Shown in pieces: positions 21,300 through 64,000 of a DNA stretch of 64,000 bases (positions within the stretch are counted from its first letter, which is position 1; each line of letters begins with the position of its first letter). The position numbers were made by a program, and so were the translations under genes. Where the stretch lies: NCBI GenBank assembly GCA_033032865.1, contig JAWHQI010000040.1, forward strand, positions 14,029,501 to 14,093,500. The letters are read 5' to 3'. The notes beneath the pieces are model-generated. The model was not told where the DNA came from. It saw nothing but the letters and a program-made list of their open reading frames with translations, and ran no database searches. Source of the stretch: Dactylorhiza incarnata (Eukaryota; Streptophyta; Magnoliopsida; Asparagales; Orchidaceae).

Positions 21300-22260
21300 A
21301 TGCAAATTTCTATGATATTTCAGCAATAATAAATCATTAATTAGTTTCTTAAGTGATGAGTCCAAATACTACTTTGTGAAGGAAGTATGAAGTTTACTCA
21401 GTGAATAATTCTAATAAAATTTGCATGGCTTCATACTGATATAAAAAGACCTTTTACAAAATTTCATAATATTTCAACATCAATTATTCAGGGAATTAAT
21501 TTCTCATGTTATAGGTTCAAATTCTGCTTTGTGAAGGAAGTATTTCATTCACTCAATGATTAATTCTAACAAAATTCTCAGAGCTTCCTACTGATGTGAA
21601 AAGTCAATATATAAAATTTTATAACCATCCAACAACTATATTTCATGGTATGAATTTCTCAAATTATAAAGTCAAATTCTACTTTGTGAAGGAAGTATGT
21701 CATATACACAATGGTTAATTCTATTAAAATTCGCAGAGCTTCCTACTGATATGAAAAGTCTATATACAAAATTCTACAACCATCCAGCAAATATCATTCA
21801 TGGTATGAATTTCTCAAGTTATAACACAAATTGTACTTTGTGAAGGAAGTATGTCATATAATCAATGATAAATTCTAACATAATTTCCAGAGCTTCCTAC
21901 GGATATGAAAAGTCTATATACAAAATTCTATAACCATCAAGCAACTATAATTCATGGTATGAATTTCTCAAGTTATATAATCAAATTGTACTTTGTGAAG
22001 GAAGTATGTCATATACTCAATGATAAATTCTAACAAAATTTTCAGAGCTTCCTACTGATATAAATAGACCTTGTACAAAGTTTCATAACAATCCAGCATC
22101 AGTAATTCAGGGAATTAGTTTCTCAAGTTATAAGTCCAAATGCTACTTTGTGAATGAAGTATGTTGTTTACTCAATGATTAGTTCTAAAAAAATTCCCGT
22201 AGCTTCACACAGATATAAAAATTCTATGTACAAAATTTCACAACATTTCAGTAAGCTTTG
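21300..22260. repeat. 155-bp tandem array, six units
   Basis: CTTTGTGAA(G/T)GAAGTATG recurs at about 21,372, 21,527, 21,682, 21,836, 21,991 and 22,146, a spacing of 154-155 bp throughout. Each unit also carries CAGAGCTTCCTACTGATAT-like and CAAAATTCTATAACCATC-like blocks. The even spacing despite sequence drift suggests amplification by unequal exchange. Confidence 0.9.
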
Positions 22261-29831: not shown

Positions 29832-29969
29832 ACACGTGTAGTGGTAGCTTGCCAATTCCGTTGCGGTGGTCTTCAGAATTTTGGATCCCGGCCGATATCT
29901 GACATACCCCTGCATCAAGGGAGGTCTAGGTGTTTGTCAGCTCTACCATGCCCCGAAAGGGATATAGTT

Positions 29970-30379
29970 ATAGCTTTGATGATCTTTCTGAGGAAAGCAA
30001 TGTTCGCCGCCGAGGCCCACCTGCCCAACTGATCATCATAGCCTGTGACCATCGAATACTCTTAGGTACTCTTGAAACGGTGCCTAGTTGGGCCCACAAC
30101 TGAGTTGATCTCTCTGAGGAAAGAAATGTTCGCCGCCGAGGCCCACCTGCCCAATTGATCAACTCGGCTTGTAAACCTAGGCAAGAGAGCAGATGAGTCG
30201 CTTACAGCTCTTATGACCACTTGAGGAAAGCAATGTTCGCCGCCGAGGCCCACCTGCCCACTTGGTCATCTGAGTCTGTACATGCTTTTTCTTTTTTCTC
30301 TCTACAGCTCTTATGACCACTTGAGGAAAGCAATGTTCGCCGCCGAGGCCCACCTGCCCACTTGGTCATCTGAGCCTGT
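29970..30379 (+). ncRNA. Four-hairpin array of Tat-1
   Basis: Four hairpins of 76-77 nt lie at 29,970-30,046, 30,096-30,172, 30,204-30,279 and 30,304-30,379. Each has a 4-bp outer stem (ACAG/CTGT, ACAA/TTGT or ATAG/CTGT), one bulged base on the 3' side, a short middle helix, a small internal loop in three of the four, an inner stem (GATGATC/GATCATC, GAGTTGATC/GATCAACTC or ATGACCA/TGGTCAT), and a shared loop with AATGTTCGCCGCCGAGGCCC. Calling it a structured RNA is inference from pairing and covariation. Confidence 0.6.
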
Positions 30380-30540
30380 AGATTATCCTTTTTCCCTACA
30401 GGAAGGCATTCACCTCTTGTGGTTTCTTGTATAAAACCATTCGAGGAAGATATTATTAAAACAGGTGCAGGTGTTCGTCTACCCAAATAAAGGGTTGTGA
30501 TATTAAGACCGGGCGGTCTGAACTTTCAAACCGAACGGTC

Positions 30541-31115
30541 TGATTGTATATAGGCTGGATATTTCTGGACAATAGCATGGTTGCCCGGGTTGTATTCTAA
30601 CCGGGCGGCCCTATCCATCTTTTATAGGTTGGAAATTTCTGGACAATTACATGGTTGCGCGGGTTGTATTCTAACCGGCCGGCCCTATCCATCTTTTATA
30701 GGTTGGATATTTCTGGTCAATTACATGGTTGCCCGGGTTGTATTCTAACCAGGCGGCCTTATCCATCTTTTATAGGTTGGATATTTTTGGACAATTACAT
30801 GGTTGCCCGGGTTTTATTTCAACCGGGCGGGTTTGTCCATCCTTTATAAGTTGGATATTTCTGGAGCTAATTATATGATTGCCTGGATTGTGTTCTGACC
30901 GGTCGGGTTTATCTATCTCTCCATTCTATTAAATTGGATATTTCTGGATCTGAATATATTGCCCGGGTTGTATTCTAACCGGGCGGGTACTATCTATCTT
31001 TTATAATTAATTAAGTTGGATATTTCTAGATCTAAATATATGATTGCCCGGATTATGCTCTAACCGATCGGGTTGAGCTATTTCTTAGCAAAAGTTGTCT
31101 CTAGATGCAATGGAT
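30541..31115 (+). repeat. Minisatellite of about 74 bp with an AACCGGGCGG core (Tat-1)
   Basis: TTGCCCGGGTTGTATTCTAA-like blocks recur at 30,581, 30,655, 30,729, 30,803, 30,879, 30,959 and 31,044. Spacing is 74 bp in the first units and drifts to 85 bp. Each unit carries one ACCGNNCGG-type palindrome. Bases 31,116-31,539 hold further diverged units and no gene. Confidence 0.88.
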
Positions 31116-41056: not shown

Positions 41057-42333
41057 TTGTATTTTGCTTTTATTTTGGATGGCCTACGGTTTGATTTTAT
41101 TAACCAGTCGGTTAGAAACAATGTAAGAATATTTTGATAATGAAATGGAAAGTTTTTTACCTGTCTAACTGTCTACTTTCTGCGACTTACTTGTGATTGT
41201 TTGCAATCTCTTTTTGCTTTGGGTAATTGACTCTTCTAGCTGAGTCGTGCGACTTAATATTAACTCAACCGGTCAGGACACTGATCTTCATAGAATTCTG
41301 GTTAAGTAACCATTAGTAAAAACTTGTTCGCATAACTTGTTTCTTCAATCCGGACCAAGTGGAGTTGATTCATCCAGAAAAAGTGTTAACTATAATGTTA
41401 TGTCACATAGTCGATGCGGTTTGGATATATAATCGAGCGGACAGAAATCCAAGTTCTGTATTATGGGTGCCTTGTAATAACCAGGAAACCGAACATAACC
41501 AAGCTGCGCGATTATTACCAGACTCTGCACACTTGCTTTTCAGAATAAAGAATGCCAAGTCATAAGAACAATCAACAGACCGAGCGGCCAGCACTTTAAC
41601 TCGAGCGACTTACAACTAAGATTGCTGCAAGTCCCATCCCCGTGATCTAGCTAATAACCGATCAGGAAATTGACATAACTAAGCCGTGCGACTATAACCT
41701 GGCTTTGCATAATTGCCTTGCAAGATACAAGTCATAAGAAAAACAGTCGGTAGGTCGTGCGATTAATATTTAACCCGAACGATTTATGTGACTCAGCTTT
41801 ACATAATATTAGCTGATAATCCGCGCGGGCTACATACAATTTGAGCGGTCAGTAGCTTGATACCTGCAATGAGAATCATAATTGCTTGATTGAAAAGAGC
41901 CTGTTATTAACCGAACGGATCGAATTGAAACCCATAGAGATGATAGATTCACAATTCGAATGATGAGGTCGACCGGTCATGATTATGTTTGATCCCTCGA
42001 TATTTGCCTTGTGACATTTTAATGATATCCTGTTTATTTCAAACCGTCTCGTCTGAAAACTAGACCGCCTGACATCTTTAGAACCTGCTTATTTTAAACC
42101 GCCCGGTTTAATAACCAGACAGCCCGATAATCTTGGTACCTGCTTATTTCAAACCGCCTGGTTTAATAACCAGACAGCCCGATAATCTTGGTACCTGCTT
42201 ATTTCAAACCGTCCGGTTTTAAGTATCAAGTCGACCGGTTTGTGATGTACAAAAGAATCCTGCTTTTTCTCCAAATGGTCTAGAATGACCATATAGGATG
42301 AGATAATTTCCTGTAATGTAATAAAAGATGGTT
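41057..42333. other. Non-coding region after Y of Tat-2, with 55-bp repeats
   Basis: Nothing coding is seen. At 42,029-42,240 a 55-bp unit (CCTGCTTATTTCAAACCG, then CCGGTTTAATAACCAGACAG) is repeated about four times, each unit with an AACCGNNNGGTT-like palindrome. It occupies the place of the 74-bp array in Tat-1 and the 70-bp array in Tat-3. Confidence 0.75.
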
Positions 42334-42752
42334 ACAGACTCAGATGACCAAGTGGGCAGGTGGGCCTAGGCGGCGAACATTGCTTTCCCCAAGTGGTCAT
42401 AAGAGCTGTAGAAATAAAGAAAAAGACAAGTACAGACCCAGATGACCAAGTGGGCAGGTGGGCCTAGGCGGCGAACATTGCTTTCCTCAAGTGGTCATAA
42501 GGGCTGTAAGCGACTCAACTGCTCTCTTGCCTAGGGTTACAAGCCGAGTTGATCAATTGGCCAGGTGGGCCTAGGCGGCGAACATTGCTTTCTTCAGAGA
42601 GATCAACTCAGTTGTGGGTCCCGCTTAGGCATCGCTTGAGAGTACCTAGGAGTATTCGATGGTCACAAACTAAGATGATCAGTTGGGCAGGTGTGGCTAT
42701 GCCGCGGGGGCTATACTGACATTGCTTTCCTCAGAAAGATCATCAAAGCTGT
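42334..42752 (-). ncRNA. Four-hairpin array of Tat-2
   Basis: Hairpins lie at 42,334-42,409, 42,432-42,507, 42,539-42,615 and 42,665-42,752. The second has CCC/GGG in the middle helix where its sisters have CTC/GAG, a paired change. The first three loops all read CCTAGGCGGC (plus strand), where Tat-1 and Tat-3 loops read CCTCGGCGGC. The fourth loop is damaged and about 12 bases longer. Confidence 0.6.
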
Positions 42753-43097
42753 AACTATATCCCTTTCGGGGCATGATAGAGCCGACATTCACCTAGACCT
42801 CCCTTGATGCAGGGGTGTGTCGGATATCAGCCGGGATCCAAGGTTCTGAAGACCTCCGCACGGGAATTGGCAAGCTACCACTACACGTGTGCGAAAACTC
42901 CCCGCTACACATGATCTTCGTGGTTTTACGCTAATGAATACAATCCGAGGGGGTTCGAGCAGAACTTGGCGATGTCTCCGCGGTTCAGTGAGGTTGATAT
43001 ATAAGAAAGTGTATAAAGAAACATCAGACATGGAAAAGTGTCGGTATGGGCTTCTTACTAAAATATCCAAAAAATGCAGGAAAGTAGAGAGGACATT
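42753..43097 (-). other. Region between pol stop and hairpins of Tat-2
   Basis: No gene. It is well conserved with 53,508-53,861 of Tat-3 (for example AAGCTACCACTACA and ATCCGAGGGGGTTCGAGCAG) and would be the 3' untranslated part of the pol transcript. Confidence 0.6.
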
Positions 43098-46694: not shown

Positions 46695-47529
46695 TGTTCG
46701 ATTCAAAAGTGCGCCTCCGAAGGAAAACGAGGGTTGCGGACTATCAGTTACTATTTAGTTAGAGAATTCAGACCGCTAGCAGCGGTCGAGGCCGGACTTC
46801 GCCCGTCGCGGCAAATGCCACTCCTGCGACGGGCTTTCCTTTGATTGAAAAGAAGCGGTTACAAATGTGAAAGAACAGAAGCCGGCCGGTCAACAGTTCG
46901 CGAGACCTGAAACTCGAGACCGGAGCTCAGACAAGCGAGCTCTTGGATTCGAGTGTGCCTGTCTTGGGAACAGTGCCGCCCCCTATTTATAGGCTTGGGG
47001 GCCTGCCCGAATGGGCAGGGATAGAATAACCTCCTGCCCGGGTACAGGAGAAACGGGCAGGCGGTGACGGGATGCACAAAGAAGAAAAAGAAAGAGGCCG
47101 CGCGATCTGACGGCCTGCCTTCCCGACCTGTCTTGCTTGCGGCTGAGGACACCGGGACCAAGTCAATAATGCAGACCGCGCGGTTTGGAGATTGAGGTCG
47201 CGGTCTGCCTTCTGGTCATGACTTAGCCGATCTTCAAGAGGTAACTTGGATAGCCTTCGATCTGGAGCCCCGGCCTGTTCTTCGGGGCTGGAACTTCGAG
47301 TTTCTATGGGACAACCCGCGCGGCCTTCTTGCTGAGACCGCGGATGAACTTCTTGCCTTGGCTCTTTGACGATCTTATCTCTTTGGGGGCGATCCGAAAA
47401 TGACACCAGGCCGCCCGGCCTGGCCCTTCTTGAACTGAGAACCGCCGACCCCGGGACCCAGCGGCTTGGCCCAGGAGTCCGAGCGGTCTGATAATGGTTC
47501 AAACCGAGAAGCGGTTTTCCGGGCAAACA
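46695..47529 (-). repeat. 3' LTR of Tat-3 (835 bp)
   Basis: On the minus strand it starts TGTTTGCCCGG, preceded by ATGCGGGGATTA as the polypurine-like tract, and ends GAATCGAACA. The TATA box (TATAAATA on the minus strand) is at 46,991-46,984, with CCTGCCC/GGGCAGG hairpins beside it. It is identical to 59,533-60,367. Confidence 0.97.
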
Positions 47530-47716
47530 TAATCCCCGCATATTTTCAAATCACAGAGGATTTCGAAAATATTAGCTTTGACCGGGAGACCGCATCCGAC
47601 TTGCCTTGAATTCTATAAGAGAGCCAGAGAATTCATTCTGCGTTGCTTTTTCTGAAATCACGGGATATTACTCGCCAGTTGCGGTCAGAATTTTTAAGAC
47701 CGGCAATTCTTCAGTA

Positions 47717-49791
47717 ATGGACTTCCTGGACGCCGTGCTAGACCGCGTGGATCCCAGCGGAGACCAGAGGAGGGCGGAAGACAAGAGGCGCGAACCGTTG
47801 GAGAAGCCGGACAAGGAGAAAGAGAAGCAAGACCGGAAAGATCGGAAGAAGAGGAAGCGGGCTGAGAAGGCCGCAGCGGCTAGCCTCAAGCCAGTCGTAG
47901 ATTTGTCAACTCCCAAAACCTCTGCAGAGCCCGTGGTGAACAGCTTGGGGCCTTCCCCTGATGTCTCGCCGATCCCTCCCAGCGACCTCAACCAACAGAC
48001 CGCCAGCTTGCCGAGCAAAGAGGTGGACGCCACTTCTGAGAAAGTTGTTTCAGACAGCCCTTCGAAGAAGGTCGGCGAAACCGCCTCGTTTGGAGTGGAA
48101 ATCACCCCATCCGGGAACCCTCACCTGCTTGTCAGGGATCTAGAGGAAGGGGCGGTTAGTTCCCCCAGGACGGGCGAACTGAGTACTCCTCTGTCCGTGG
48201 ATGATTATCCCAGCCCCCTGAAAGAAGTTCACCCAGCTCCGGGTAAGAGAGAAAAAAAGAGGAAGCAGACCGTGTCCGTGACCGAGCGGATAACAAAGAA
48301 GGTCAAGAGGCTAGCCGCTAAGGAAAGGGCGGCCCTTAAGAAACCGACCGAATCCCTCCTTCAGACCAACTCGCGTCTAAAGGAGGAATTGGGCCTCACG
48401 ACTCCTCCACCAAAAAAGTTGAATGACCCATCGGCTACCCCTGATACGAGGCCGGGCGAACTGATTCCGGACACGGCGAGTAGTTTATCCTTTAATGGGA
48501 TTTTCAGAGACATGGATGAGCTGGTGAAGCGGGACCAGCTCCTTGACAGCCCGCCGGCCCGAGAACAAACCGCCCGAACTGCTGATAACTCAGGCCGCCC
48601 CGCCGAGACCGATCAGACCGAGGCCGAAGAGCGAGAAGTCGCTGCCCGGACCGCCTTGGAGGTTGAGCGGAAAGCGATGGAGCTTGGGGAGGTGCTGAAG
48701 GCGCAGGAGAAGGTTCCCCCGGCAATGACCGGGGAGGAGATAGTGGTGGCGAAGAAGGAAAAGGCGGACCGGGCTTTAAACAAGCCGCCGCGGTCTGATC
48801 TCTTCGCACCAGGTACGAGCCCCGCGGATCGTAAATCCGTCCGTTTCTTCATTCCACGGCCTCTTCGAAATAAGTTATTGACCCCGCCGACGAGCTTTTT
48901 CCCTATGGCGGCCTGGTCTTCTTCCGCTAGGCAGAGTAAGGAGAAATTCTTGCATGAACTACAACGGCGGTTAGACCCAAAACAGCCTAAGCGGCCTGCG
49001 CGCCTAGGCACTGATCTTTTATTTATGTCCATTGCTGTATATATTCAACCCTGCATGCTTTTATTTTTTATGACCGCGCGGCCTTTTGCAGATAGCAGCG
49101 ATCAGACTGTGAAGCCGGGCGACCTCGTGGCCAGCCTACCTCCATTGGTTCCCCTGGCATCGATCCGCGCAACAACTTCGCAGGAAGGGTCTCAACTTTT
49201 CGAACATCTCGAAGGGGATCTGGCCACCCTGCGAGCCCGTTTGAAAGAGATCGAAGACCGGGAGGCCGCTACTCGGACCACTCTGGAGGCTGAGCGAGTT
49301 GCGAGGATGAAGGCTGAAGAGGCGCTGAAGGCTCAGCTGGAGGCCGCGCAGGTAGCAGTGGAGGCCGAGAAGAGGGCCAAGGTGGCACAAGTCGCTGCTC
49401 TGACCGCCCAGCTGGAGAAAGAGAAGAGAGCGTCCGCGAAATCTGAGGGCGACTCGAAGTATTACCAGGAAAAGTTCCTGCGATTAACCAGAGAGGTCGC
49501 TGCGAGCCGGCGAAATATGAATGATGCGATGGTGGTTATTGGCCGCCCGACTGTTGGGGCGGGCTCGAATCCTCCCCCGGTTCGGGCGGTGATCCAATGG
49601 TTGATGAGGCCGCTGCGGTCCCCCGTATGATTGCCGCCTCGCGGGTTGAAAGGGATGCCGGGCGGCTTCATAGTACAATCAACCACCTCCATTATCATAC
49701 CAGCCAAATTTATTCTCTCCTGAACACCACAAGTGACCAGGTCGCACGACTTCATAGAGAGGATGCCTCCCCAGAGCGCCGTCAGCCGTGA
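47717..49791 (+). pseudogene. Antisense gene X of Tat-3, frameshift near its end
   Basis: The ATG at 47,717 opens MDFLDAVLDRVDPSGD, then a strongly basic stretch (residues about 30-60, KDRKKRKRAEKAAA) and a long polar region. A donor at 48,813 (CCAG/GTACGAG) and an acceptor ending at 49,091 (CCTTTTGCAG) give a 279-bp intron with fitting phase. In this copy the intron is also open in frame, and part of it (SFFPMAAWSSSARQSKE) is conserved in Tat-1, so retention is possible. The 3' exon encodes a coiled coil (EDREAATRTTLEAERVARMK). One base is missing near 49,589 compared with Tat-1, so the last 65 codons (ending HREDASPERRQP) are out of frame. The start lies 187 bp from the 3' LTR. No function is known to me. 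Confidence 0.72.
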
Positions 49792-50166
49792 CCAATATTT
49801 GTATATAACTTGTATTATGAATGTGGCTTGTTGATCTGGACAATGTTCTTCTCTATTCTTGTCTTTTATTCGAACAATTCGCGCGGTCTCTTATGTTAAC
49901 CGCTGTACTTTATGCCTTGTTTAAATCTTATGTTTCATTCGAACTGTTTTCCGGTCGGGCGAACTGTGATGTATGCTTACTTCTTCTTTTTTTTTTTTTT
50001 TTTTTTTTTCTGGATGCCTTTGCCTCTTTCATATTTCTGGTGAATCTAACCATATAGGCCATTGACCGCGCGGTCAGAATGTATAACCGTGTCATGATTT
50101 TACTATTCACAGATCATAGAAATCTATAAGTATAGAATTTGCCGAAGTCATTCTCACGATTTCCAG
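49792..50166. other. Spacer between X and Y of Tat-3
   Basis: No gene. It contains a run of 23 T (49,987-50,009) and the palindrome GACCGCGCGGTC at 50,064-50,075, about 90 bp before the Y start. It is the likely place of the Y promoter. Confidence 0.45.
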
Positions 50167-52033
50167 ATGGCGCGATCCAAGAACAAGTCGCAGCGACCTG
50201 TAAAAGTTAAGGCCGTCCGAGCTGACGCGGCCTTGGCATTCCATTCGGCGGACCATCCGGAATGCCGCCTTACTCAGAACGAACTAGATGATTTCATTGC
50301 TAGACACATGGTAGGGAGCAATCTGCTCGCGCGGCTTCCTTTGCGCGACGAGCGGATTAACTCTTCCAGTCCGCACCAGATCGCCATCCCAGTTGACCAC
50401 TTCGAATATGGCTTCAAGTTTCCACTGCCGCTTGAAGTCATAGCCATTTTCGACCACTACGGGGTTGTGCCCGGTCAGCTTCCGCCGAACTCGATCGCTT
50501 CAATATACAGCTTCATCTCCTATCTGCGGTTCGAGCGAACTAGATTCTCCATCGACTTGTTCAGGAAGTTCTTCTCGGTGCGGGCAGTATCCGACTCGGG
50601 GACTTCGACTTACAGAGGGCACCTCTACTTCAGCTGCCTCGGGCTGAAGGTTGTTAACCTGGCGAACAAAGTTTCCGACTGGTCGGAGCGGTTTGTAATG
50701 CTTGAAGGTAACTTCGGGTTGTTACAAACCAACCCGCAAGTCCGGGGGGAAGAAGTTTTCCAGATCCCCCAGGTCGGCAAGATCGAGGCGGACACCTTCG
50801 CGTTCCTTGAGAAGGAGCGGCTTGATATCAACCACTACATCCCGCTTTTCTCGGAGCTTGAGAACATCCTCCCCGAACATAGTAAGTTCTTCTAGACCGC
50901 CTTCATATGACCGCGCGGCCTTCTTTACTTATACTTTTAATTTTATTTTGCAGCCGCCCATATTGTTCCAGCGAACAAGCCGGTCACGCCGGCCGGCCCA
51001 GTTTTAACCCAGAGGGAGAAGAGGCAGCGGCGAAAGAGGTCGCCATCCTCGGAGGAAGAGGGCCCGACCTCTTCTGACGACTACGAAATTCTTCGTTCAA
51101 GTGGGAACCCGCCCGACCTGCAGGGCAACCCGACCGTCCTTTGGCACAGGGATGGAAGTCGGATCCGGGTATCCACCGCTCTCCCTCCCTGGGGGAGCGA
51201 AAAAATTGAACGCCATGCCCTAGCCGCCGGGGCCGCCTTGTATGGTCGAAAGACCTTAAGGAAACTGATGAGAACCCCAGAAGAAGAGCTCCCCCGGCTA
51301 GCGGCTCAAGCCGGCGCCTTGGGATTTTCGGCCAACCACTTCATGGCCCTGGCGTATAAGCGGCTAGTTTCTGCTCAGAAACATCTGGAGAGGAAATACG
51401 AGGAACAGGCCGCGGAGAACACGCGGCTTCAAGAAGAGAACGCGCGGCTTCAAGAAGTCGTGGCGGTGAGTTTTTCAAAAGACAATGCGGTCCCTTTTGT
51501 TCAGCCCGAGCGGCCTGATTCATTTTTCCTTTTTCTTGCAGAAGCAATATGAGATGACCAACCCGTCCTTCCAGGACGAGGTGCTGCCCCATGTGGCCCA
51601 AGGGATCAACAAGGCCTTGGGTCTCATGGGAGACCGGGGCGGTCTGTCCGAAGGATTCGGCGGAACCACCTTCTCCGACCTCTTCCCCGCCTTGGAGGTG
51701 CAGCTCGACGAAATCAACCGCAGGAAGAAGGGAAAATCCAAGGTGGGCGAGGAGGCCGAAGCGGACGCGGGCATGGAGATTGCGCTCCATCAAGGAGGCG
51801 ATGGAAGTGATGAAGCCGCTGAAGAGGTCGACGCGGATGGAGATGCCGATGACTTCGATGATGAGGATAGTTTGTCCTCTGGATCTACCGGCTCTGCAAG
51901 CAAGACCGGGCGATCTAGCGACAGTAGTTCGTCCGGCTCCTCTTCGCTAAGTGAAGGTTATTCGCCGGAGGTCGACATCGATGGCGTAGACCCCATTTCT
52001 CCTGTCAAGAAGAAGAAGAAATCGGCAGACTAG
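50167..52033 (+). CDS. Antisense gene Y of Tat-3, three exons, intact
   Basis: Exons 50,167-50,881, 50,954-51,465 and 51,542-52,033 join to 572 codons with no stop. The introns (72 and 76 bp) have GTAAGT and GTGAGT donors and TTTTGCAG and TTCTTGCAG acceptors, and interrupt the same codons as in Tat-2. The protein starts MARSKNKSQRPVKVKAV. Residues about 55-225 resemble the plant 'putative gypsy type transposon' domain (Pfam PF04195): FPLPLEVIAIFDHYGVVPGQ, then PPNSIASIYSFISYLRFERT. A coiled coil ends exon 2 (EEQAAENTRLQEENARLQE). The tail is serine/acidic and ends KKKKKSAD, a possible nuclear signal. It reads against pol and ends 1.8 kb from the pol stop, so the two are convergent. Extra ORFs past pol, some antisense, are known in Tat elements. 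The biochemical role is unknown. Confidence 0.8.
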
Positions 52034-53100
52034 TGCCCTCGTTTTTTAACTTTTAATTTTTGTAACCGCCGGTCTCTTTTTGTTGGCCGGGCGGTCAATA
52101 TTTTGTAAACATGTTTTGAGAAATGAAATAGAAGTTTTTACCTGTCTGATTGTCCTTCTATCATTACTTACTTGTGATTCTTTGTCTCTTTTCTTTACTT
52201 TCTATGATCTAACCGTGCGGACATCTTGGCCTGAGCACAAGTGATGGTTGATTGTCTTCGACGATCCTTTGTTCAACCCGCGCGGTTATATATTTGGATC
52301 TCAGGACATTCGATCTCTAATAACAGATAGATTCATGCGACCATAATTCGGACCGCGCGGCTTCTTTAGATATTAAATACTTGCTGATCGGTTAGAACAC
52401 AATCCGAGCGACCACGTATTCAGATCCAGGGATATCCAATTCTGATTATTCATTCAGTGATAGATAATGCCCGGCCGGTTTAAAATTCAACCCGAATTAC
52501 ATAGCCAGATCCAGAAAATACTAGCTTGATAGAACGAAGAGATAGATAGATCCAATCCGATCAAAAATGTAACCCGAGCGATCATATAGTTAGCTTTAAA
52601 AAATATCCAATTTTATAACGGATGGATGAACCCGCCCGGTTCGAATGCGACCCGGGCAATCAGATAATCAGTTCTGGAATTTTGATAATAAACGGTCGGA
52701 TCCGCCCGGTTAGAGTGCAACCCGGGCAATCAGATAATCAGTTCAGAAACACTTTCCTTAATAGACGACGGGCATACCCGCCCGGTTTGAATATAACCCT
52801 GGTGATAACATGATCAATTTCAAAAGATGACTTAACTTATGTTCAGCCAGACCGCTCGGTCTGAAATACTCAGACCGCATGGTCTTAATACCACAACCCC
52901 TTATTGGGGTAGACGAACACCTGCACCTGTTCAACCAGACCGATCGGCCTGAAAAACTCAGACCGTCCGGTCTTAATATCACAACCCCTTTATTGGGGTA
53001 GACGAACACCTGCACCTGTTCTAACAATATTCTCCTTGAGTGGTCCATATAAAAAATCATCAGAAGTGAATGCCTCCCTGTAGGGAAGAAGAATAATCCT
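52034..53100. repeat. Palindrome-bearing minisatellite and leader-like repeats of Tat-3
   Basis: About 52,440-52,800 carries units of about 70-76 bp (CCGCCCGGTT at 52,632, 52,702 and 52,778; CCCGGGCAATCAGATAATCA at 52,651 and 52,721). About 52,840-53,030 holds two copies of a longer block with GACCGNNCGGTC sites (52,850-52,861; 52,961-52,972) and CCCC-T-rich-GGGG, which on the pol strand puts AATAA or AATAAA in a loop closed by CCCC/GGGG. No gene is seen. Confidence 0.8.
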
Positions 53101-53507
53101 ACAGGCTCAAATGACCAAGTGGGCAGGTGGGCCTCGGCGGCGAACATTGCTTTCCTCAAGTGGTCATAAGAGCTGTAGGGAAAAAGAAAAAATATGTACA
53201 GACTCAGATGACCAAGTGGGCAGGTGGGCCTCGGCGGCGAACATTGCTTTCCTCAAGTGGTCATAAGAGCTGTAAACGACTCATCCGCTCTCTTGCCTAG
53301 GGTTACAAGCCGAGTTGATCAATTGGGCAGGTGGGCCTCGGCGGCGAACATTGCTTTCCTTAGAGAGATCAACTCAGTTGTGGGCCCATCTAGGTACCGT
53401 TTCGAGAGTACCTAAGAGTATTCGATGGTCACAGACTATGATGATCAGTTGGGCAGATGGGCCTCGGCGGCGAACATTGCTTTCCTCAGAAAGATCATCA
53501 AAGCTGT
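53101..53507 (-). ncRNA. Four-hairpin array of Tat-3
   Basis: Hairpins lie at 53,101-53,176, 53,198-53,273, 53,305-53,381 and 53,431-53,507, matching those of Tat-1 and Tat-2 in order. On the plus strand each loop includes GGGCCTCGGCGGCGAACATT. Two hairpins share the ATGACCA/TGGTCAT inner stem; one has GAGTTGATC/GATCAACTC and one GATGATC/GATCATC. They lie in the gap between the convergent ends of pol and Y. The RNA role is inferred. Confidence 0.6.
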
Positions 53508-53861
53508 AACTATATCCCTTCGGGGCATGATAGAGCTGACAATCACCTAGACCTCCCTTGATGCAGGGGTGTGTCAGATATCGGCCGGGATCCAAAGTTC
53601 TGAAGACCACCGCAGCGGAATTGGCAAGCTACCACTACATGTGTGCGAAAACTCCCCGCATCACATGGTCTTGGTGGGTTTTACGCTACGACTACAATCC
53701 GAGGGGGTTCGAGCAGAATTTGGCGATATCTCGGAGGTTCGGGGAGTGAGATATGTGTGTTTATATTTATGATGCAGAGAACCATCAGACAAGAAGAAAA
53801 TGTCAGTATAGGGCTTTTCATTCAATACCAAAAAGAGATGTAAAGAATAAAAGAAATAGTT
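53508..53861 (-). other. Region between pol stop and hairpins of Tat-3
   Basis: No gene. It is conserved with Tat-2 and, where present, Tat-1, which suggests a functional 3' part of the genomic RNA. Confidence 0.55.
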
Positions 53862-56800
53862 TCAAGGATAGAATCGTTTGAGATCGTCACCGCTCCACGT
53901 GCGTGGGATGTCTTCTCCTTCGCTGGTTTGGAGACGGTAGGCCCCATTCTTAGATACTTCTTTGATGATGAAAGGTCCTGCCCAATTAGGATCCAGCTTT
54001 CCAACATTACCAGACCTTGCTGCGGCATCCACCTTTTTTAACACCAAATCCCCGACTACAAACTGCTTCACTCTGACATTCTTATCAAAATATTTTGCCA
54101 TTCTCCTTTTAACTTCTTCCTGCCTGATTGTTGCTTCATCCTGAAGTTCCTCGATTAGATCAAGATTATGCATGAGGGCCTCACCATTTTCATCTATCCA
54201 GGATTCTCCTCCTTCTTTGGCGTAAATAACCCTTGGAGTGACCACCTCGAATTCCACAGGGACAACAGCTTCCGAGCCATGAGATAATTTAAAAGGTGTC
54301 TCCCCGGTAGCCGAGGACGGAGTAGTACGAAGGGTCCACAGGATGGAAGGAAGTTGGTCCGCCCAATTCCCTTTCTGGTTTAAGACTCTTTTCATCAAAA
54401 GCTGCCGAATTTGCCTGTTTGCCGCCTCCACTTGACCATTGGTCCTTGGATGGTGTACTGAGGCAAACCGAAGATCAATTCCTACCTGATCACAGAAGCT
54501 TATCATCTCCGGATTGTTGAATTGTGGGCCATTATCGGTGACGATTGCCAACGGAATTCCATGTCGGCAGATAATTTCTCCCCAGACGAAGTTTCTGACA
54601 ATTTGGGTGGTAGTTCTTGCTAATGCTTTTGCTTCGATCCACTTACTGAAATAATCGATCATTACCAGGATAAAGCGACGTTGTCCGCTGGCCATTGGGA
54701 AAGGCCCCATAAGATCCATTCCCCATACTGCAAAAGGCCATGGCGCAGTTATTGACCTGAGTGACTGAGCAGGCAAATGTTGAAGAGGAGCGAACTTTTG
54801 GCACTGGACACATCGCTTGGCGAAGGCTTCAGCATCCTTTCTCATGGTTGGCCAGAAGTATCCTTGCCGCAGGATCCTTTTTTCTAAGGTTTTCGCCCCT
54901 GAATGGCTACCACACTCCCCAGAATGAATTTCCTGAAGTATGACCGGGATCTCCTCTTCTGAAACGCACCGTGCCGAGGGAGAAATCAAAGTTTTTCGGT
55001 ACAAGACTCCTGCTATCAAGTAGTAGTAAGCCGCCTTTCTTCTGAACCTATTTTTGTCCTTGATTGATGGATGATATTCTTCTTTCGTCAGAAACAATTC
55101 GTAGGGGTCTTTCCAGGAAGGATGTTGATCGATCTGCATGAGCTCTTCTTCCTCTGTCTCCTCTGTTGCCGGATGAAAAAGTTCTGAGGTTACTCCCCCT
55201 GATGGAAGACCAAATTTTGACAATTCGTCTGCCTCTTCATTCTGCGTTCTCGGAATGTGCTCGATGATGAAGGATTTGAATCTCCCGATTTCTTTCTTAG
55301 CTAGGAATAGGTATTTTCTCAACATCGGTTCTCTTGTCTCGTAGTTCCCCAGAACCTGCGAGGCCATTACAAGAGAATCAGTTTTCACATGAACATGTTC
55401 TATCCCAAGCTCCTTTGCGAGTCTCAGGCCGGCCAAGAGTGCTTCGTATTCGGCCTGGTTATTTGTAACTGAAAAGAAGAATCTAACAGCTTGTTCCAGC
55501 CTGATGCCGTTTGGACTGATCAAAACCACTCCGGCTCCCACGGAGTTCTTACCAGAAGCCCCATCCACATAAATGATCCAAGCCAAAGGAGATTGCACTA
55601 CCTGCTCTGGATTAGACTCCATTGTGTCTACCAAGAAATCTGCCAATACTTGTGCCTTTATTGCCGTTCTGGGAGTGTACAATATTTCGAACTCGCTTAG
55701 CTCGATTGCCCATTTGGCCAACCTTCCTGAATGTTCCGGCTTCTCCAAGATATTCCTCAGTGGATGATCTGAAACCACCTGAATAGGATGAGCTTGAAAA
55801 TAGGGGCGGAGCCTTCGTGATGACATGACTAAAGCCAAGGCTAATTTCTCCAGGATTGAATATCTAGTTTCTGCATCTTTAAGGATATGGCTGACATAGT
55901 ATATCGGAAACTGTTTCTTTTTCTCTTCCCGAACCAGGACAGAGCTTATCGCATCAGGGCCCACCCCCAAGTACAAGAATAGTGTTTCTCCTTCGCGAGG
56001 GCTTTGAAGAAGGGGGGTTGAAGTTAATTGCTTTTTCAATTGTTCGAAAGCATTATTGCATTCCTCGTTCCATTCAAACTTAGATCCTCCCCTAAGTGTT
56101 TTGAAGAACGGAGCGCTTTTATCTCCCGATTTGGAAATGAATCGGCTCAATCCTGCCAACCTTCCACCAAGTTGCTGTACCTCTTTCGGATTACGAGGAG
56201 GGGTCATGTCTAGGATGGCCTTTACTTTATCTGGGTTCGGTGCGAGACCATCAGGAGTGAGAAGATGTCCAAGAAATTTCCCCTTGTTCGCCCCGAACAC
56301 GCATTTCGAGGGGTTTAATTTTAATTTGAACCTCCGTAGAGTAGCGAACGTCTCTACGAGGTCTTCCAGATGGATTAAAAAAGTTTTACTTTTTAGAAGG
56401 AGATCATCAACATATACTTCCAGATTTCTCCCTTTTTGTTTTTCAAAAACTGTGTCCATCATCCTCTGATATGTTGCCCCCGCATTTTTGAGGCCGAAAG
56501 GCATGACGAGATAACAATAACATCCATCATTGGTAATGAAGGATGTATGCGGGATATCAGGCTTATGCATCTTAATCTGGTGATAACCAGAAAATGCATC
56601 TAAAAAACTCATAAAACTATATCCCACCGCGGAATCTACCAAAACATCTATCCGAGGCAAGGGATAACAATCCTTGGGGCATGCTTTATTGAGTTTAGTG
56701 AAATCAACACACATACGCCACTTCCCCCCAGACTTTTTCACCATCACTACATTCGACATCCAGGTGGGGTACTGGATTTCAGAAATGAAATTGGCCTTAA

Positions 56801-57506
56801 GAAGCTTTGCAACTTCTTCTTTGATAGGCACCGCCAGCTTAGTTGCTACCTCCCTCTTCTTCTGTTGGATTGGCTTGAACTCCGGAGAAACGTTGAGGTG
56901 ATGGCACGCGACATCTGGATCTATTCCAGGCATGTCTTCTGCCGACCAAGCGAAGATGTCCAAGTTATTCAGCAGGCAGGAGGTTAACTGGAGCTTTTCC
57001 TCTTCCGATAGCTCGGCGTTGATGATCAGCTTCTTCCCTTCCCCTTCAACAATGGGGATCTCTTGGGTCTCCTGGGCAGGTTCCAGGTAGGTCCCTTTCC
57101 GTTCCGCGCTCTCCTCAGCTTCTTCAGGGAGTTCGGACACCTCTTGGATGTCATTCTGGGCCTTGTGAAGTGGTGCCTCGGTGATCACATTAACTGTCTT
57201 CACATAACATTCGCGTGCCACCTTTGGATCGCTCCGGATCCGGTACTGACGCCCCTCAGCAGCGAATTTCAAGGCCAAATGGAAAGTAGATACCACCGCT
57301 CTGTAAGCATTCAGGATCGGCCTTCCGAAAATTGCGCAGTAGCTACTTGGGGCTTCCACCACTACGAAGTTCACCAACTTCGTTATACCCCCTAGCGATA
57401 CCAGAAGCTTCACGCACCCTTCCACTTCCTTCTTTTCTCCTGAGAAGCCATAGAGGGGGCCTTCCGTAGAGAGTAAGGCCTTTCCAGTCTTGAGGGCCTC
57501 AAACGT
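53862..57506 (-). CDS. Tat-3 pol: protease end, RT, RNase H, archaeal-type RNase H, integrase
   Basis: One open frame on the minus strand, continuing in frame from gag after a single TAA at 57,507-57,509. Counting from 57,425 as residue 1, RT covers about 219-345 with YVDD at 338-341. RNase H covers about 482-600, but its usual first Asp motif is replaced by LYLGVGP, so it looks inactive. A second, archaeal-type RNase H covers about 615-740 with Asp621 (IYVDGAS), the Glu of AEYEAL, Asp683 and Asp733. Integrase has HHCC (His834, His841, Cys872, Cys875) and the triad Asp904, Asp964, Glu1000 with 35 residues between the last two. The C-terminus ends GDDLKRFYP. The dual RNase H is the mark of the Tat clade. 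There is no separate ATG, so it would be made as part of a Gag-Pol polyprotein. Confidence 0.94.
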   Translation of the reverse strand, partial: TFEALKTGKALLSTEGPLYGFSGEKKEVEGCVKLLVSLGGITKLVNFVVVEAPSSYCAIFGRPILNAYRAVVSTFHLALKFAAEGRQYRIRSDPKVARECYVKTVNVITEAPLHKAQNDIQEVSELPEEAEESAERKGTYLEPAQETQEIPIVEGEGKKLIINAELSEEEKLQLTSCLLNNLDIFAWSAEDMPGIDPDVACHHLNVSPEFKPIQQKKREVATKLAVPIKEEVAKLLKANFISEIQYPTWMSNVVMVKKSGGKWRMCVDFTKLNKACPKDCYPLPRIDVLVDSAVGYSFMSFLDAFSGYHQIKMHKPDIPHTSFITNDGCYCYLVMPFGLKNAGATYQRMMDTVFEKQKGRNLEVYVDDLLLKSKTFLIHLEDLVETFATLRRFKLKLNPSKCVFGANKGKFLGHLLTPDGLAPNPDKVKAILDMTPPRNPKEVQQLGGRLAGLSRFISKSGDKSAPFFKTLRGGSKFEWNEECNNAFEQLKKQLTSTPLLQSPREGETLFLYLGVGPDAISSVLVREEKKKQFPIYYVSHILKDAETRYSILEKLALALVMSSRRLRPYFQAHPIQVVSDHPLRNILEKPEHSGRLAKWAIELSEFEILYTPRTAIKAQVLADFLVDTMESNPEQVVQSPLAWIIYVDGASGKNSVGAGVVLISPNGIRLEQAVRFFFSVTNNQAEYEALLAGLRLAKELGIEHVHVKTDSLVMASQVLGNYETREPMLRKYLFLAKKEIGRFKSFIIEHIPRTQNEEADELSKFGLPSGGVTSELFHPATEETEEEELMQIDQHPSWKDPYELFLTKEEYHPSIKDKNRFRRKAAYYYLIAGVLYRKTLISPSARCVSEEEIPVILQEIHSGECGSHSGAKTLEKRILRQGYFWPTMRKDAEAFAKRCVQCQKFAPLQHLPAQSLRSITAPWPFAVWGMDLMGPFPMASGQRRFILVMIDYFSKWIEAKALARTTTQIVRNFVWGEIICRHGIPLAIVTDNGPQFNNPEMISFCDQVGIDLRFASVHHPRTNGQVEAANRQIRQLLMKRVLNQKGNWADQLPSILWTLRTTPSSATGETPFKLSHGSEAVVPVEFEVVTPRVIYAKEGGESWIDENGEALMHNLDLIEELQDEATIRQEEVKRRMAKYFDKNVRVKQFVVGDLVLKKVDAAARSGNVGKLDPNWAGPFIIKEVSKNGAYRLQTSEGEDIPRTWSGDDLKRFYP

Positions 57507-59481
57507 TTAGCGAAAGATGAGATTGACCGAGCTGCCTGTATCGATCAAAATTTTGTGCACTGCGTAATTCTCAATAACCGCCTTTATCACCACCGCGTCA
57601 TCGAACGGATTTGCATTTGGGGAGAGATCTTCCTGGCCAAACGTAACAACCGTCCTTTCCGGGGCAGAAGTGGAGGTAACTGCCACTTCTTGCTTTGTAA
57701 TTCTCCCGATGCTAGATTTTCGGGAGGATTCTATCCCTGCCCCACCATGGATGCAATAGATGTTGCCGAGAGAGCCAACATCATTCACCTCTATGCATTC
57801 GGCTGCGGGATGTATATCCCCATAACCACCGGCCTCCTCTACATCAGCACACTCCCATGTTACTTCGACTGCCTCCTTCTTCTTCTCAGCTCGCGGTTCA
57901 ACCGGAGTTTCTTGCCGAATCAACCCCCGAAGCTTTCCCTCTTTCAGGAGTTTTTCTATCAACCACCGGAGGGCCCGGCAATCCTCAGTCTGATGCCCCT
58001 CTTCTTTATGATATTCACAATAAAGGTTTGGGTTCCGATTGCGAACTTCTGATTTCAAAGGAGGGGGCCTTTTAAAGTCAGGCCTCTTCTGAAGAATCTG
58101 CACGACCTCATTCATGGTGACGTTGAGTGGGGTGAACGAATCTTGTGATTCATCATATCGGATGGATGGGATAGGTGGAGATGGTTGTGCGATGTATTGT
58201 GGCAGATATACGGGCATGATTTGCGGAACTCCCATGGGTTGAGTGGGTGCGATGGCCAACGGCGGCTTCTGATCTTGAAACCGTTGATGGCCAATGAATG
58301 GTTGCTTGGGCTTAAGATTCCTTCCCCTTTGAGCCCGAGGCTCGAAATCAGGCCGAGATGAGTGATTATAACGTTGCTGATGGGTTGATGCAGAATTGAA
58401 CTGATCGTTGTCGCTGAGCAACTTGGCAACGTAACCCGGATTAGTCTTTTCCCCCCTGATGAATTTGTTTGCCAGACTAATCATTTCTTGATATGTCTTT
58501 GGTTCCCTGATTTGGGCTTCAAACTTCAGTGGCCCCTCCCTAAGGCCATGCATTAGTGCGACCCTATATAACTCCGGATCGACGTTTTGTACCTCCATTA
58601 TTTCCCTTTGGAAACGATCGACGAAACGGGCCCACGTTTCGTTTTCTTGCTGTCGTATCTCGAATAGGGCTGCCGGACCATTCTTCCTCTTCTTAGAGGT
58701 AGAGAATCGAAGCAGAAATTCTCTACGCAACTCCGCAAAACATCTGATAGATCGAGGATGCAATCCATAGAACCATTCTCTGGCCTGCCCATCAAAGGAT
58801 GTCACCAGGAGCTTGCACTTTGTTGCATCAGTGATGGTCCTCAGAGCAACAGCCGATTCAAATGCCTGGAGGTGTATTGCTGGATCGGATTCCCCACTAT
58901 ATGCCGACATACGTGGTTCTCGAAAGTTGTTTGGGGCCGGCTCTCCTCGGATTTCGTCGGTGAAGGGAGAACTCTCCTCGGCATCCTCGTACAGAGGGAA
59001 AGCAGGGTTATAAGGGATCTCGGCTGCGGTCATTGGCGGACAGGCCGCATGATAGGAGCGGGCAGGTGCTCCAGCCGGATATGATTGGAAGGCGGCGACC
59101 TCAGGCGGATAGGGAAAATGAGCGGCCTGAGAGGTCGCCCCTTGAAAGTCAAGGACCCGAGCTGGCATACATCGCGCGGCCTCTTGGTAGAGATTCGGCC
59201 GGTCCGCGGAACCTTCTTGTGGTGGTCGGGAATGAGCGACTTGCGCGAACGGATATGGAGGTGGAGGAGGTAAAACAGGAGTGGACCGCCTGGGGAGCCG
59301 CGGCCTGCTGAGGGGCTAACCGCTCGGTTAGTAGTGTTAGGGCCTGAGTGATCGCGTCCAGATGCTGATCAGTCGCCTGCCGAGCCTGGTCGGCCTCTCT
59401 CTTTGTCTGCTCCAGAGCTTCCCACAAAGAGTCTTCACTGTGGTCGGATCGGTCTCTTGGAGGGAGCTGGCGGTCTGACAT
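57507..59481 (-). pseudogene. Tat-3 gag and start of protease, frameshift and stop
   Basis: The ATG at 59,481 opens MSDRQLPPRDRSDHSED, 51 nt after the LTR. A one-base frameshift between about 59,250 and 59,300, just before a proline-rich stretch, breaks the frame compared with Tat-2. The retrotransposon Gag domain follows (CKLLVTSFDGQAREWFYGLH, then FVDRFQREI and EMISLANKFIRGEK). A zinc-finger-like CEYHKEEGHQTEDC is of the Tat type. The protease active site, LIDTGSSVN, lies near 57,530. A TAA follows at 57,507, where Tat-2 has a Pro codon, so protease and pol are cut off from gag. With identical LTRs, these lesions were present at insertion or are very recent. Confidence 0.88.
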
Positions 59482-59507
59482 TCTGAACCAAGGATTTCGC
59501 TGACAGT

Positions 59508-59532
59508 CTGCGATCTGAAGGTCGCGTGTTTC
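59508..59532 (-). promoter_or_regulatory. Presumed primer-binding region of Tat-3, not TGG-type
   Basis: After the LTR end the minus strand reads GAAACACGCGACCTTCAGAT. The same bases follow the Tat-2 LTR at 62,445. The TGG that pairs with the CCA end of a tRNA is absent, so the primer is not clear. Confidence 0.45.
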
Positions 59533-60367
59533 TGTTCGATTCAAAAGTGCGCCTCCGAAGGAAAACGAGGGTTGCGGACTATCAGTTACTATTTAGTTAG
59601 AGAATTCAGACCGCTAGCAGCGGTCGAGGCCGGACTTCGCCCGTCGCGGCAAATGCCACTCCTGCGACGGGCTTTCCTTTGATTGAAAAGAAGCGGTTAC
59701 AAATGTGAAAGAACAGAAGCCGGCCGGTCAACAGTTCGCGAGACCTGAAACTCGAGACCGGAGCTCAGACAAGCGAGCTCTTGGATTCGAGTGTGCCTGT
59801 CTTGGGAACAGTGCCGCCCCCTATTTATAGGCTTGGGGGCCTGCCCGAATGGGCAGGGATAGAATAACCTCCTGCCCGGGTACAGGAGAAACGGGCAGGC
59901 GGTGACGGGATGCACAAAGAAGAAAAAGAAAGAGGCCGCGCGATCTGACGGCCTGCCTTCCCGACCTGTCTTGCTTGCGGCTGAGGACACCGGGACCAAG
60001 TCAATAATGCAGACCGCGCGGTTTGGAGATTGAGGTCGCGGTCTGCCTTCTGGTCATGACTTAGCCGATCTTCAAGAGGTAACTTGGATAGCCTTCGATC
60101 TGGAGCCCCGGCCTGTTCTTCGGGGCTGGAACTTCGAGTTTCTATGGGACAACCCGCGCGGCCTTCTTGCTGAGACCGCGGATGAACTTCTTGCCTTGGC
60201 TCTTTGACGATCTTATCTCTTTGGGGGCGATCCGAAAATGACACCAGGCCGCCCGGCCTGGCCCTTCTTGAACTGAGAACCGCCGACCCCGGGACCCAGC
60301 GGCTTGGCCCAGGAGTCCGAGCGGTCTGATAATGGTTCAAACCGAGAAGCGGTTTTCCGGGCAAACA
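59533..60367 (-). repeat. 5' LTR of Tat-3 (835 bp)
   Basis: Identical to 46,695-47,529. The minus-strand TATAAATA lies at 59,829-59,822, which predicts transcription start near 59,797. Upstream of it lie a hairpin, CCTGCCC-GAAT-GGGCAGG (59,840-59,857), and a second pair of the same arms (59,871-59,877 with 59,893-59,899). Confidence 0.97.
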
Positions 60368-62445: not shown

Positions 62446-63221
62446 TGTTGAGTCTAAAATCGCACCTCCGAAGGAAATCGGAGGCTGCAGGATGCCGGTT
62501 ACTTTTTAGGTGGAGAAAATGAGACCGCTAGCAGCGGTCAAGGCCAGACTTCGCCCGTCACGGCGAATGTCACTCCTGTGATGGGCTTTCCTTTGATTAA
62601 GAAGAAGCGGTTACACTGGATTACAAGTGCAGGAAAGCAGAAGACGGCCGGTCAGACAGTCCGCAAGATGGGAACCTCAAGACCGCAGCTCAAACATGCG
62701 ATCTCCTGGATTCGAGTGTGCGTGCCTTGGGAACGGTGCCGCCCCTTATTTATAGGCTTGGGGGCCTGCCCGAACGGGCAGGGATAAAATAACCGCCTGC
62801 CCGGGTACAGGAGAAACGGGCAGGCGGTGATGGGATACAAAAAGGGAAAGAGAGGGAAGCCGCGCGGCTTGGTGGTTTGCGCTTCCGACCTATCTGACCA
62901 GAGTCTAAAGATGCTGCGATCAAGGTGACGATGCCATCCGAGAGGTCTCTGTCTTGAGACCGCGGCTTGCCCTTTGGACTCGAACCTTGGCTGGTCTTCA
63001 TGGCATAACCCGGGCGGTCTCCGACTTGAGACCGCGGCTTGCCTTTTGGACTTGGGCTTTGATGACCTTCAATATCTGAAGGCGATCTGAATCATGTCAG
63101 ACCGCTCGGTCTAAGCTGGTTTGTGCTGATGGACCTCATTAAACCTGAACCAGACGACTTATATCCGCAGACCGCCCGGTCTGGGAGTGGTGTTATTCGG
63201 AAGCGGTCTTCTGGGTAAACA
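62446..63221 (-). repeat. 5' LTR of Tat-2 (776 bp)
   Basis: On the minus strand it starts TGTTTACCCAG and ends GACTCAACA, and is homologous to the Tat-3 LTR but shorter and clearly diverged. The minus-strand TATAAATA lies at 62,754-62,747, with the CCTGCCC/GGGCAGG arms upstream. It is followed by the same GAAACACGCGACC leader as Tat-3. Confidence 0.9.
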
Positions 63222-64000
63222 AGATGGAATGGTTTAAAATTGTGGTCCATTGGATGTATATCTCCATGCATGTTTCGAAAAGGTGTTGTGGGTAAAAGTC
63301 AGACAACCGGATCAAAAGTTATGGCTGTTTGAAATTCAGGTGTCATTTGGAGCTAAATTTCGCATTACCGCTGCAACCCGCTATATATCGACAACTAAAT
63401 GAACTAGAATGACTAAAACTTGTGCATCAATGAATGTATGGCTCCTAGCTCATTCCAAAAAGGTGTTGTGGGGTAAAATCTTACCACCGGATCAAAAGTT
63501 ATTGCTGTTTAATGGTTGAGGGTCATTTGGAGATAAATCTCTCACTTTCACTACAACCCGCATAAAAAAATCTTTCATTTTGAAATTTTTGTGTCATTTG
63601 GAGCAAAATCTCGCAGTACCAGTACAACCCACTGTATTTCGACCTCTAAACTAGCTTGAATGGGTTAAAATTTTCTCAATTGGATTTAGGGCTCCGATCT
63701 CATTCTGAAAAGGTATTGTGGGCAAAAAACGAACAACCGGATTAAAAGTTATGGATGTTTGAAGTTTAGGTCTCATTTCGAGCTAAATGCCTTATGACAA
63801 ACCCATTGTACATTGACCACTGAGCGAATTGGGATGGTTAAAATTGGTTCTCCATTAGATGAAGCACTCCAAGCTTATTCCAAAAAGGTGTTGTGCGCAA
63901 AAATCGGACAACCAGATCAAAAGTTATGGTTGTTACAGTTTATGTGTCAATTGAAGCTAAATCACTCATTACCACTGCAACCCGTTGTATATTGACCACT
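63222..64000. repeat. Tandem repeat of about 178 bp, continuing past the window
   Basis: AGGTGTTGTG or AGGTATTGTG with CCGGATCAAAAGTTATGG-like sequence recurs at 63,281, 63,461, 63,711 and 63,886. Spacings are 180, 250 and 175 bp; the long interval contains an extra partial copy of about 70 bp (63,560-63,630). No gene. This is the sequence into which Tat-2 inserted. Confidence 0.85.

Follow-up and report, generated by a model that had tools for sequence, protein, structure and literature searches.

A conserved, repeated hairpin array downstream of pol in Retand-like retrotransposons of an orchid genome: a candidate cis-acting RNA element

Carrier elements and the hairpin array

The window (the entire 64,000-nucleotide stretch analysed here, from a plant genome of 3.27 Gb) contains three LTR retrotransposons, Tat-1, Tat-2, and Tat-3, of which Tat-3 (46695-60367) is nested in Tat-2 near the gag–pol boundary of the latter (Table 1). 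The sense strand relative to gag-pol is the minus strand for Tat-2 and Tat-3 and the plus strand for Tat-1, the last assigned by alignment to Tat-3. Judging by its identical 835-bp LTRs and AAAGG target duplication, Tat-3 is a young element. Its pol contains Pfam domains in the order RVT_1, RT_RNaseH, RVT_3, Integrase_H2C2, and rve; a second RNase H marks the Tat clade of LTR retrotransposons. Each of the three elements has one TRP28 ORF scoring above the Pfam cut-off. PMC11963269 gives an antisense TRP28 ORF between pol and the 3′ LTR as a feature of Retand elements, together with ranges of 2,933–6,566 bp for the pol–3′ LTR region, 315–1,194 bp for the LTR, and 7,380–12,869 bp for the internal region. 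The corresponding lengths in Tat-3 (∼6.33 kb, 835 bp, and ∼12.0 kb) all fall inside these ranges. From the domain order, the antisense TRP28, and the region lengths, the Tat elements look like members of the Retand lineage of the Tat clade. A further antisense open frame of 682 amino acids near the Tat-3 3′ LTR (47582-49630, plus strand) has no Pfam match at E ≤ 10, and self-comparison of the window reveals tandem repeats at 21268-22251 and 63216-64000 with offsets of ∼155 bp and ∼180 bp.

Table 1. Positions of the features of Tat-1, Tat-2, and Tat-3 in the window.
Element	Feature	Position	Strand	Remarks
Tat-3	3′ LTR	46695..47529	-	identical to 5′ LTR over 835 bp
Tat-3	antisense ORF, Transposase_28 (TRP28, PF04195)	50098..50895	+	E 2.2e-8, above curated cut-off
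Tat-3	hairpin 1	53097..53178	-	R1 47.2 bits; stem read
Tat-3	hairpin 2	53194..53275	-	R1 43.9 bits; stem read
Tat-3	hairpin 3	53301..53383	-	R1 37.5 bits; stem read
Tat-3	possible 3′ arm (TCGAATACTC) of junction-closing helix	53416..53425	-	RNAalifold
Tat-3	hairpin 4 (first after pol, position 'a')	53427..53509	-	R1 52.5 bits; stem read
Tat-3	domain U (upstream structured domain)	53510..53593	-	closing helix AUCCC/GGGAU
Tat-3	possible 5′ arm (CGGGGAGTTTTCG) of junction-closing helix	53646..53658	-	RNAalifold
Tat-3	pol (RT, RNase H, second RVT_3 RNase H, integrase)	53862..57506	-	Pfam
Tat-3	gag ORF	57507..59315	-	Pfam Retrotrans_gag
Tat-3	5′ LTR	59533..60367	-	5-bp flanking duplication AAAGG
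Tat-2	hairpin 1	42330..42411	-	R1 46.5 bits
Tat-2	hairpin 2, with CCC/GGG	42428..42509	-	R1 44.1 bits; stem read
Tat-2	hairpin 3	42535..42617	-	R1 26.4 bits
Tat-2	hairpin 4, long apex form	42661..42754	-	R1 91.6 bits
Tat-2	domain U	42755..42839	-	
Tat-1	domain U	29883..29967	+	single-sequence fold differs in inner part
Tat-1	hairpin 4	29968..30050	+	R1 54.4 bits
Tat-1	hairpin 3	30094..30176	+	R1 36.3 bits
Tat-1	hairpin 2	30202..30283	+	R1 43.9 bits
Tat-1	hairpin 1	30302..30383	+	R1 48.3 bits

Past the end of pol, and before the antisense TRP28 ORF is reached, lies an array of four hairpins of ∼80 nt, in identical order in all three elements (12 hairpins in total); the same location is seen at two loci elsewhere in the genome (L110 and L113). 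An initial annotation, made from the letters of the window, had proposed four hairpins per element at these places. A covariance model (R1) built from 24 hairpin copies elsewhere in the genome, none of them from the window, recovers all 12 in a cmsearch of the 64-kb window, each on the sense strand of its element, with no other place at E ≤ 1. The 27-nt loop core has 11 matches in the window and none in 100 shuffles. What the annotation had read from the stems is likewise borne out: there are three types of inner stem (AUGACC/GGUCAU, UUGAUC/GAUCAA, and AUGAUC/GAUCAU), the outer stem is ACAG/CUGU or ACAA/UUGU (with wobbles in hairpin 4 of Tat-1 and Tat-2), one extra nucleotide bulges at the same place on every 3′ arm, and CCC/GGG replaces CUC/GAG in Tat-2 hairpin 2. 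Seven whole copies of the Tat-2 subfamily elsewhere (L030, L050, L061, L069, L072, L073, and L079) carry the same CCC/GGG in hairpin 2, which is therefore a change of the subfamily. A coding repeat was considered and rejected, because the unit spacing in Tat-3 (97, 107, and 126 nt) places the core in different frames.

Several other features accompany the array. The three short loops of Tat-2 (42330-42617) share an apical G-to-T change that is also present in most subfamily copies seen; it is a concerted change of the core only, and the stems stay position-specific. In the sense direction, a pyrimidine-rich tract ending in TACAG precedes the 5′ arm of hairpin 1 (30284-30306 and 53178-53197) and resembles a 3′ splice site running into the hairpin, and a second such tract follows hairpin 1 at 53078-53096. 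Just 3′ of Tat-3 hairpin 1, an 88-nt unit rich in short palindromes (AGACCGNNCGGTCT) occurs about twice (52840-53021), with folding z-scores of approximately −2 to −6 on both strands. Other repeats with similar ACCG..CGGT-like palindromes are found near there in Tat-1 (30549-31085, offset 74 nt) and Tat-2 (∼42094-42215).

Distribution among element families

A pattern of the core with a variable apex has 21,970 matches in the genome and none for the reversed control. Six groups that share the fold can be told apart by their core and stems: A (Tat-1 and Tat-3), B (Tat-2, in which hairpin 4 has a long apex), C (two hairpins), D (L049), E (L075, three hairpins), and F (L077). Arrays thus range from two to four copies, and 61 long-apex units occur among the matches listed. 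Further variants are represented by L117–L120, including one (L118) whose outer stem has a different sequence and is still paired over most of its length. In tblastn comparisons with Tat-3, most pol and integrase pieces from groups C, D, and F show 64–75% identity (some shorter ones 46–59%), and the pol of group E is represented by two short pieces of 52–61% identity. The TRP28 proteins of groups C and F are 35–39% identical to that of Tat-3. Despite this divergence of integrase and TRP28, the hairpin core is largely invariant across the groups. Beyond the plant, a pol query yielded no confirmed place and prokaryote genome contigs gave no matches; 21 viral contigs matched a 20-position pattern, with 30 nt at 87% as the longest similarity to the array.

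No TRP28 was found in two of the four hairpin-bearing loci that were fetched at length (L111 and L112), and three TRP28 loci (L114–L116, 2 kb each, among 150 TRP28 places listed) have no R1 match. One of these, L115, represents a related family (integrase 69% identical) and lacks an R1 hairpin in the 1.5 kb fetched after pol; the hairpin element is therefore not universal. Two of the three loci include the end of pol, and both carry three other hairpin-like units after it. Units of this kind, with AAGTAGGA..TCCTACTT-type stems and a GGACGGTGTGTCCC core, are located at 1034-1198 in L114, 542-974 in L115, and 1274-1436 in L116. A related core pattern has 156 genome matches (none for the reversed control), some of them in arrays of 94–95 nt. 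Across seven units RNAalifold finds three pairs changed on both sides, but its covariation term does not favour the fold, and we therefore treat this second family as a lead only.

Hairpins of ∼80 nt in very many genomic copies could be precursors or targets of small RNAs with which the host or the element silences. We regard this as scarcely probable, given that it is the inner helix and apex, and not an outer arm, that stay constant, that the stems are short and interrupted, and that Rfam offers no match at its cut-off.

The fold and selection on base pairing

In the sense fold, an outer stem UUACA/UGUAA containing the single bulge is followed by three pairs, a 2 × 2 gap, a 7-pair stem, and then the stretch that the initial annotation had termed a constant loop. 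The core of this stretch is indeed largely constant, but it is not an open loop: it forms an irregular stem with its own short helices (AGGG/CCCU, AG/CU, UGU/ACA, GGU/ACC, and GCC/GGC) around internal loops. The GGU/ACC helix is absent from group A and from the short-apex copies of group B. Tat-2 hairpin 4 is the exception to the constancy, with an apex 11 nt longer, a form found in groups C–F. Helix 1 is paired in only 67% of the cells of the 24-row alignment described below, and one copy (L058_b), folded on its own, fails to adopt the structure. In 100-nt windows of Tat-3, folding-energy z-scores are modest: the best of those covering the hairpins score approximately −2 to −3, and others are close to 0. 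The short-apex core has no complementary stretch of at least 9 nt in Tat-3 outside the hairpins.

The array does lie at 53,101–53,507, as first annotated, but the covarying structure extends beyond these limits to ∼53,593 and possibly to 53,658. Directly upstream of the hairpins is a domain of ∼84 nt (domain U), in which several pairs have changed on both sides (RNAalifold on 23 non-redundant of 59 copies); its closing helix is AUCCC/GGGAU, or GUCCU/AGGAC in groups C–F. All six groups conserve the ∼200 nt preceding hairpin 4, to the extent that the sequence pieces cover them. RNAalifold also predicts a helix that would perhaps close hairpin 4 and domain U into one junction; the 5′ arm is nearly invariant, and pairing across this helix is therefore weakly supported.

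Identity between Tat-2 and Tat-3 in 100-column bins sets the block off from its surroundings. Within pol, 30 of 36 bins are 0.75–0.87 identical (full range 0.59–0.90). The two bins directly past the pol stop (∼53,876 to 53,677) fall to 0.69 and separate pol from the conserved block, which is thus not contiguous with it. The bins over domain U and the hairpins (∼53,676 to 53,090) are at 0.90, 0.97, 0.78, 0.93, 0.92, and 0.87, and the eight bins past hairpin 1 are at 0.38–0.62. This non-coding block is therefore at least as conserved as pol, and it ends with the array.

In order to evaluate pairing, we used three alignments: A3 (24 rows), A4 (99 distinct of 136 matches, from 44 loci), and A5 (78 distinct of 85, from the window and 28 loci), of which A4 and A5 were fitted to the covariance model and lean towards its fold. 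Pairing is found in 86.3% of 707 cells in A3 (25–50% in slid controls), with 10 pairs changed on both sides, and in 84.5% of cells in A4, with 18 such pairs. The initial annotation had asked whether the stems pair better than shuffled sequence, and they do: 84.7% of A5 cells are paired, compared with 79.2 ± 0.3% after column shuffling, a control blind to relatedness, and 25–55% in slid controls. Its claim that the paired changes reflect selection for a fold is supported by a tree-aware null on A4 (1000 simulations that keep the tree and the number of changes in each column). The observed pairing of 0.845 compares with 0.504 ± 0.043 and was reached in none of the simulations; six two-sided pair-keeping changes compare with 1.6 (reached in 4 of 1000), and 66 one-sided pair-keeping changes with 36 (reached in none). 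A fold derived from groups A and B also holds in groups C–F, where 54 of 63 pairs are paired (null mean 45.5; 0 of 10,000 as high) with seven two-sided changes (reached in 40 of 10,000). The converse test is weak: the fold derived from C–F pairs 63 of 76 positions in A and B (681 of 10,000 as high), with five two-sided changes (reached in 469 of 10,000). The covariation anticipated in a deeper alignment is present as two-sided changes at 19 of 30 A5 pairs but not as significance in an R-scape-like G-test with a phylogenetic null, in which 27 of the 30 pairs were scored on A4 and no pair of the structure reached E ≤ 1. Our reading of this negative is a lack of power, as there are few deep splits.

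These results bear on an explanation without selection, in which the arrays are recent tandem duplications whose arms owe their complementarity to template-switch mutations arising in replication or reverse transcription. The negative R-scape-like test agrees with it, and so does the fast-changing nature of tandem repeats for which Tat 3′ untranslated regions are known (PMC7004042 and PMC11963269). We nevertheless consider it very unlikely: the position-specific stems are common to elements that differ by ∼20% in DNA, most two-sided changes affect single, scattered pairs and pass through wobble intermediates, unlike copied blocks, and no tree-aware simulation attained the observed pairing. We consider the structure well supported by these sequence comparisons; its function we infer.

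Strand, proposed role, and relation to known systems

Evidence as to which strand folds is mixed. The 12 hairpins of the window contain five G-U and no A-C cells, but this bias did not hold in the larger set: all A4 cells together comprise 140 G-U and 173 A-C, and changes from Watson–Crick pairs led to G-U 42 times and to A-C 34 times (16 vs 17 on branches with at least two tips). Pairs that switch between U-A and C-G or between A-U and G-C, scored with folds derived on the sense strand, have 79 intermediate cells that are wobbles in sense and 37 that are wobbles in antisense, with 8 of 12 pairs favouring sense and 4 of 12 antisense. In the switching pairs of domain U the counts are 10 and 0. 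On account of the wobble intermediates and the place near pol, the sense RNA is favoured, though not proven.

The fold might instead serve the antisense RNA, as the 3′ untranslated region or end of the TRP28 transcript, or act between the converging units, for example, in 3′-end formation. In the window and at L110 and L113 the array sits where such a role would place it, with pol on one side and the antisense TRP28 ORF on the other, the antisense fold is about as stable as the sense one (RNAalifold energies of −38.4 and −40.2), and the overall G-U and A-C counts do not favour sense. We consider this reading unlikely, since the conserved block starts ∼0.2 kb past the pol stop, hairpin 1 is ∼1.06 kb from the last open antisense frame (which ends at 52,033) with a poorly conserved stretch between them, the intermediates of switching pairs are more often sense wobbles, and half of the four long hairpin-bearing loci have no detected TRP28.

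RNA helices typically show asymmetric bulges, internal loops, and wobble intermediates, features from which a palindromic DNA site would gain little. The hairpins possess all of these features, the bulge being conserved, and their arms are not perfect palindromes. It is quite improbable, against this, that the hairpins act as DNA, whether as inverted repeats for a DNA-binding protein or as strand-transfer hot spots in reverse transcription, even with about a third of the informative intermediates (37 of 116 cells) not being sense wobbles and with TRP28 predicted to bind DNA (PMC11963269).

The hairpins probably serve the element as an RNA signal that governs what becomes of its own RNA. More specifically, we give slightly better than an even chance to the array being a repeated, structured, cis-acting element of the full-length sense Retand transcript, located in its 3′ untranslated part, that is bound by protein and steers the unspliced genomic RNA. 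This proposal draws on what the groups within this one genome show: the position, the two- to fourfold repetition, the conserved core, and pairing that persists when both partners change. All hairpins would display one irregular inner helix (GGGAAAGCAAUG ... CACCUGCCC), carried by an outer stem whose pairing would count for more than its sequence. This inner helix would be bound by a host- or element-encoded protein, several hairpin copies could raise the avidity, and the bound RNA would be steered as unspliced genomic RNA, most likely into nuclear export or packaging, which we consider about equally likely. A constant irregular inner helix on exchangeable outer stems, in two to four copies within a 3′ non-coding region, is as might be expected of an RNA element that binds protein, and elements of this sort serve retroelements in export or packaging. 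Conserved, structured, and present in several copies beside antisense TRP28, the array is a testable candidate for a step in the life cycle of very abundant plant elements.

The initial annotation knew of no described element of this form, and this holds for Rfam and for the literature searched, in which few subscription papers were covered. Rfam 15 has no match in the window at the gathering cut-off, and a known RNA family or ribozyme was rejected on this basis; between 52950 and 53650 the only match at E ≤ 5 is sR42, at 13.2 bits against a cut-off of 38. The parts of PMC11963269 consulted make no mention of hairpins or RNA structure, and the words 'hairpin' and 'secondary structure' are absent from PMC7004042.

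Known retroelements provide several points of comparison. In the Cer1 element, an element-encoded protein (CERV) is needed for export of its own RNA (PMC10309623). The Retand element resembles Cer1 and the Rev/RRE system insofar as it encodes an extra protein, TRP28, near a structured RNA; it would differ from them in that two of the four longer hairpin-bearing stretches showed no TRP28. A Rev/RRE-like pair, in which antisense TRP28 binds the constant hairpin core and controls the fate of the genomic RNA, and in which Retand families (such as that of L114–L116) evolved their own arrays at the same spot, is a conjecture to which we assign a small chance. The transport elements of animal retroelements, namely, the MPMV CTE (PMC3856414) and the IAP RTE and MusD MTE (PMC12786077), are structured cis elements for the export of unspliced or full-length RNA. 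The array may be likened to them as a structured cis element of retroelement RNA, here a fold in a non-coding stretch recognised from sequence, but no Rfam family at cut-off is present in the window. The DR elements of RSV and avian retroviruses are repeated elements of ∼115 nt that putatively help to transport unspliced RNA (PMC3856414), and the possible likeness is that of repeated retroelement RNA elements with such a putative role. DRs flank src in an animal retrovirus, whereas the plant array consists of two to four hairpins with a constant core and variable stems.

The nearest comparison by location is with the 3′ untranslated tandem repeats of Tat/Ogre/Retand elements, which lie downstream of pol, as does the hairpin array, and have units of up to ∼100 bp (PMC11963269; PMC7004042). 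These repeats are published as variable and family-specific, whereas the array keeps both its core and its fold from group to group and is followed at once by poorly conserved sequence. A 3′ region that is generally portrayed as hypervariable repeats is thus, in part, under structural constraint.
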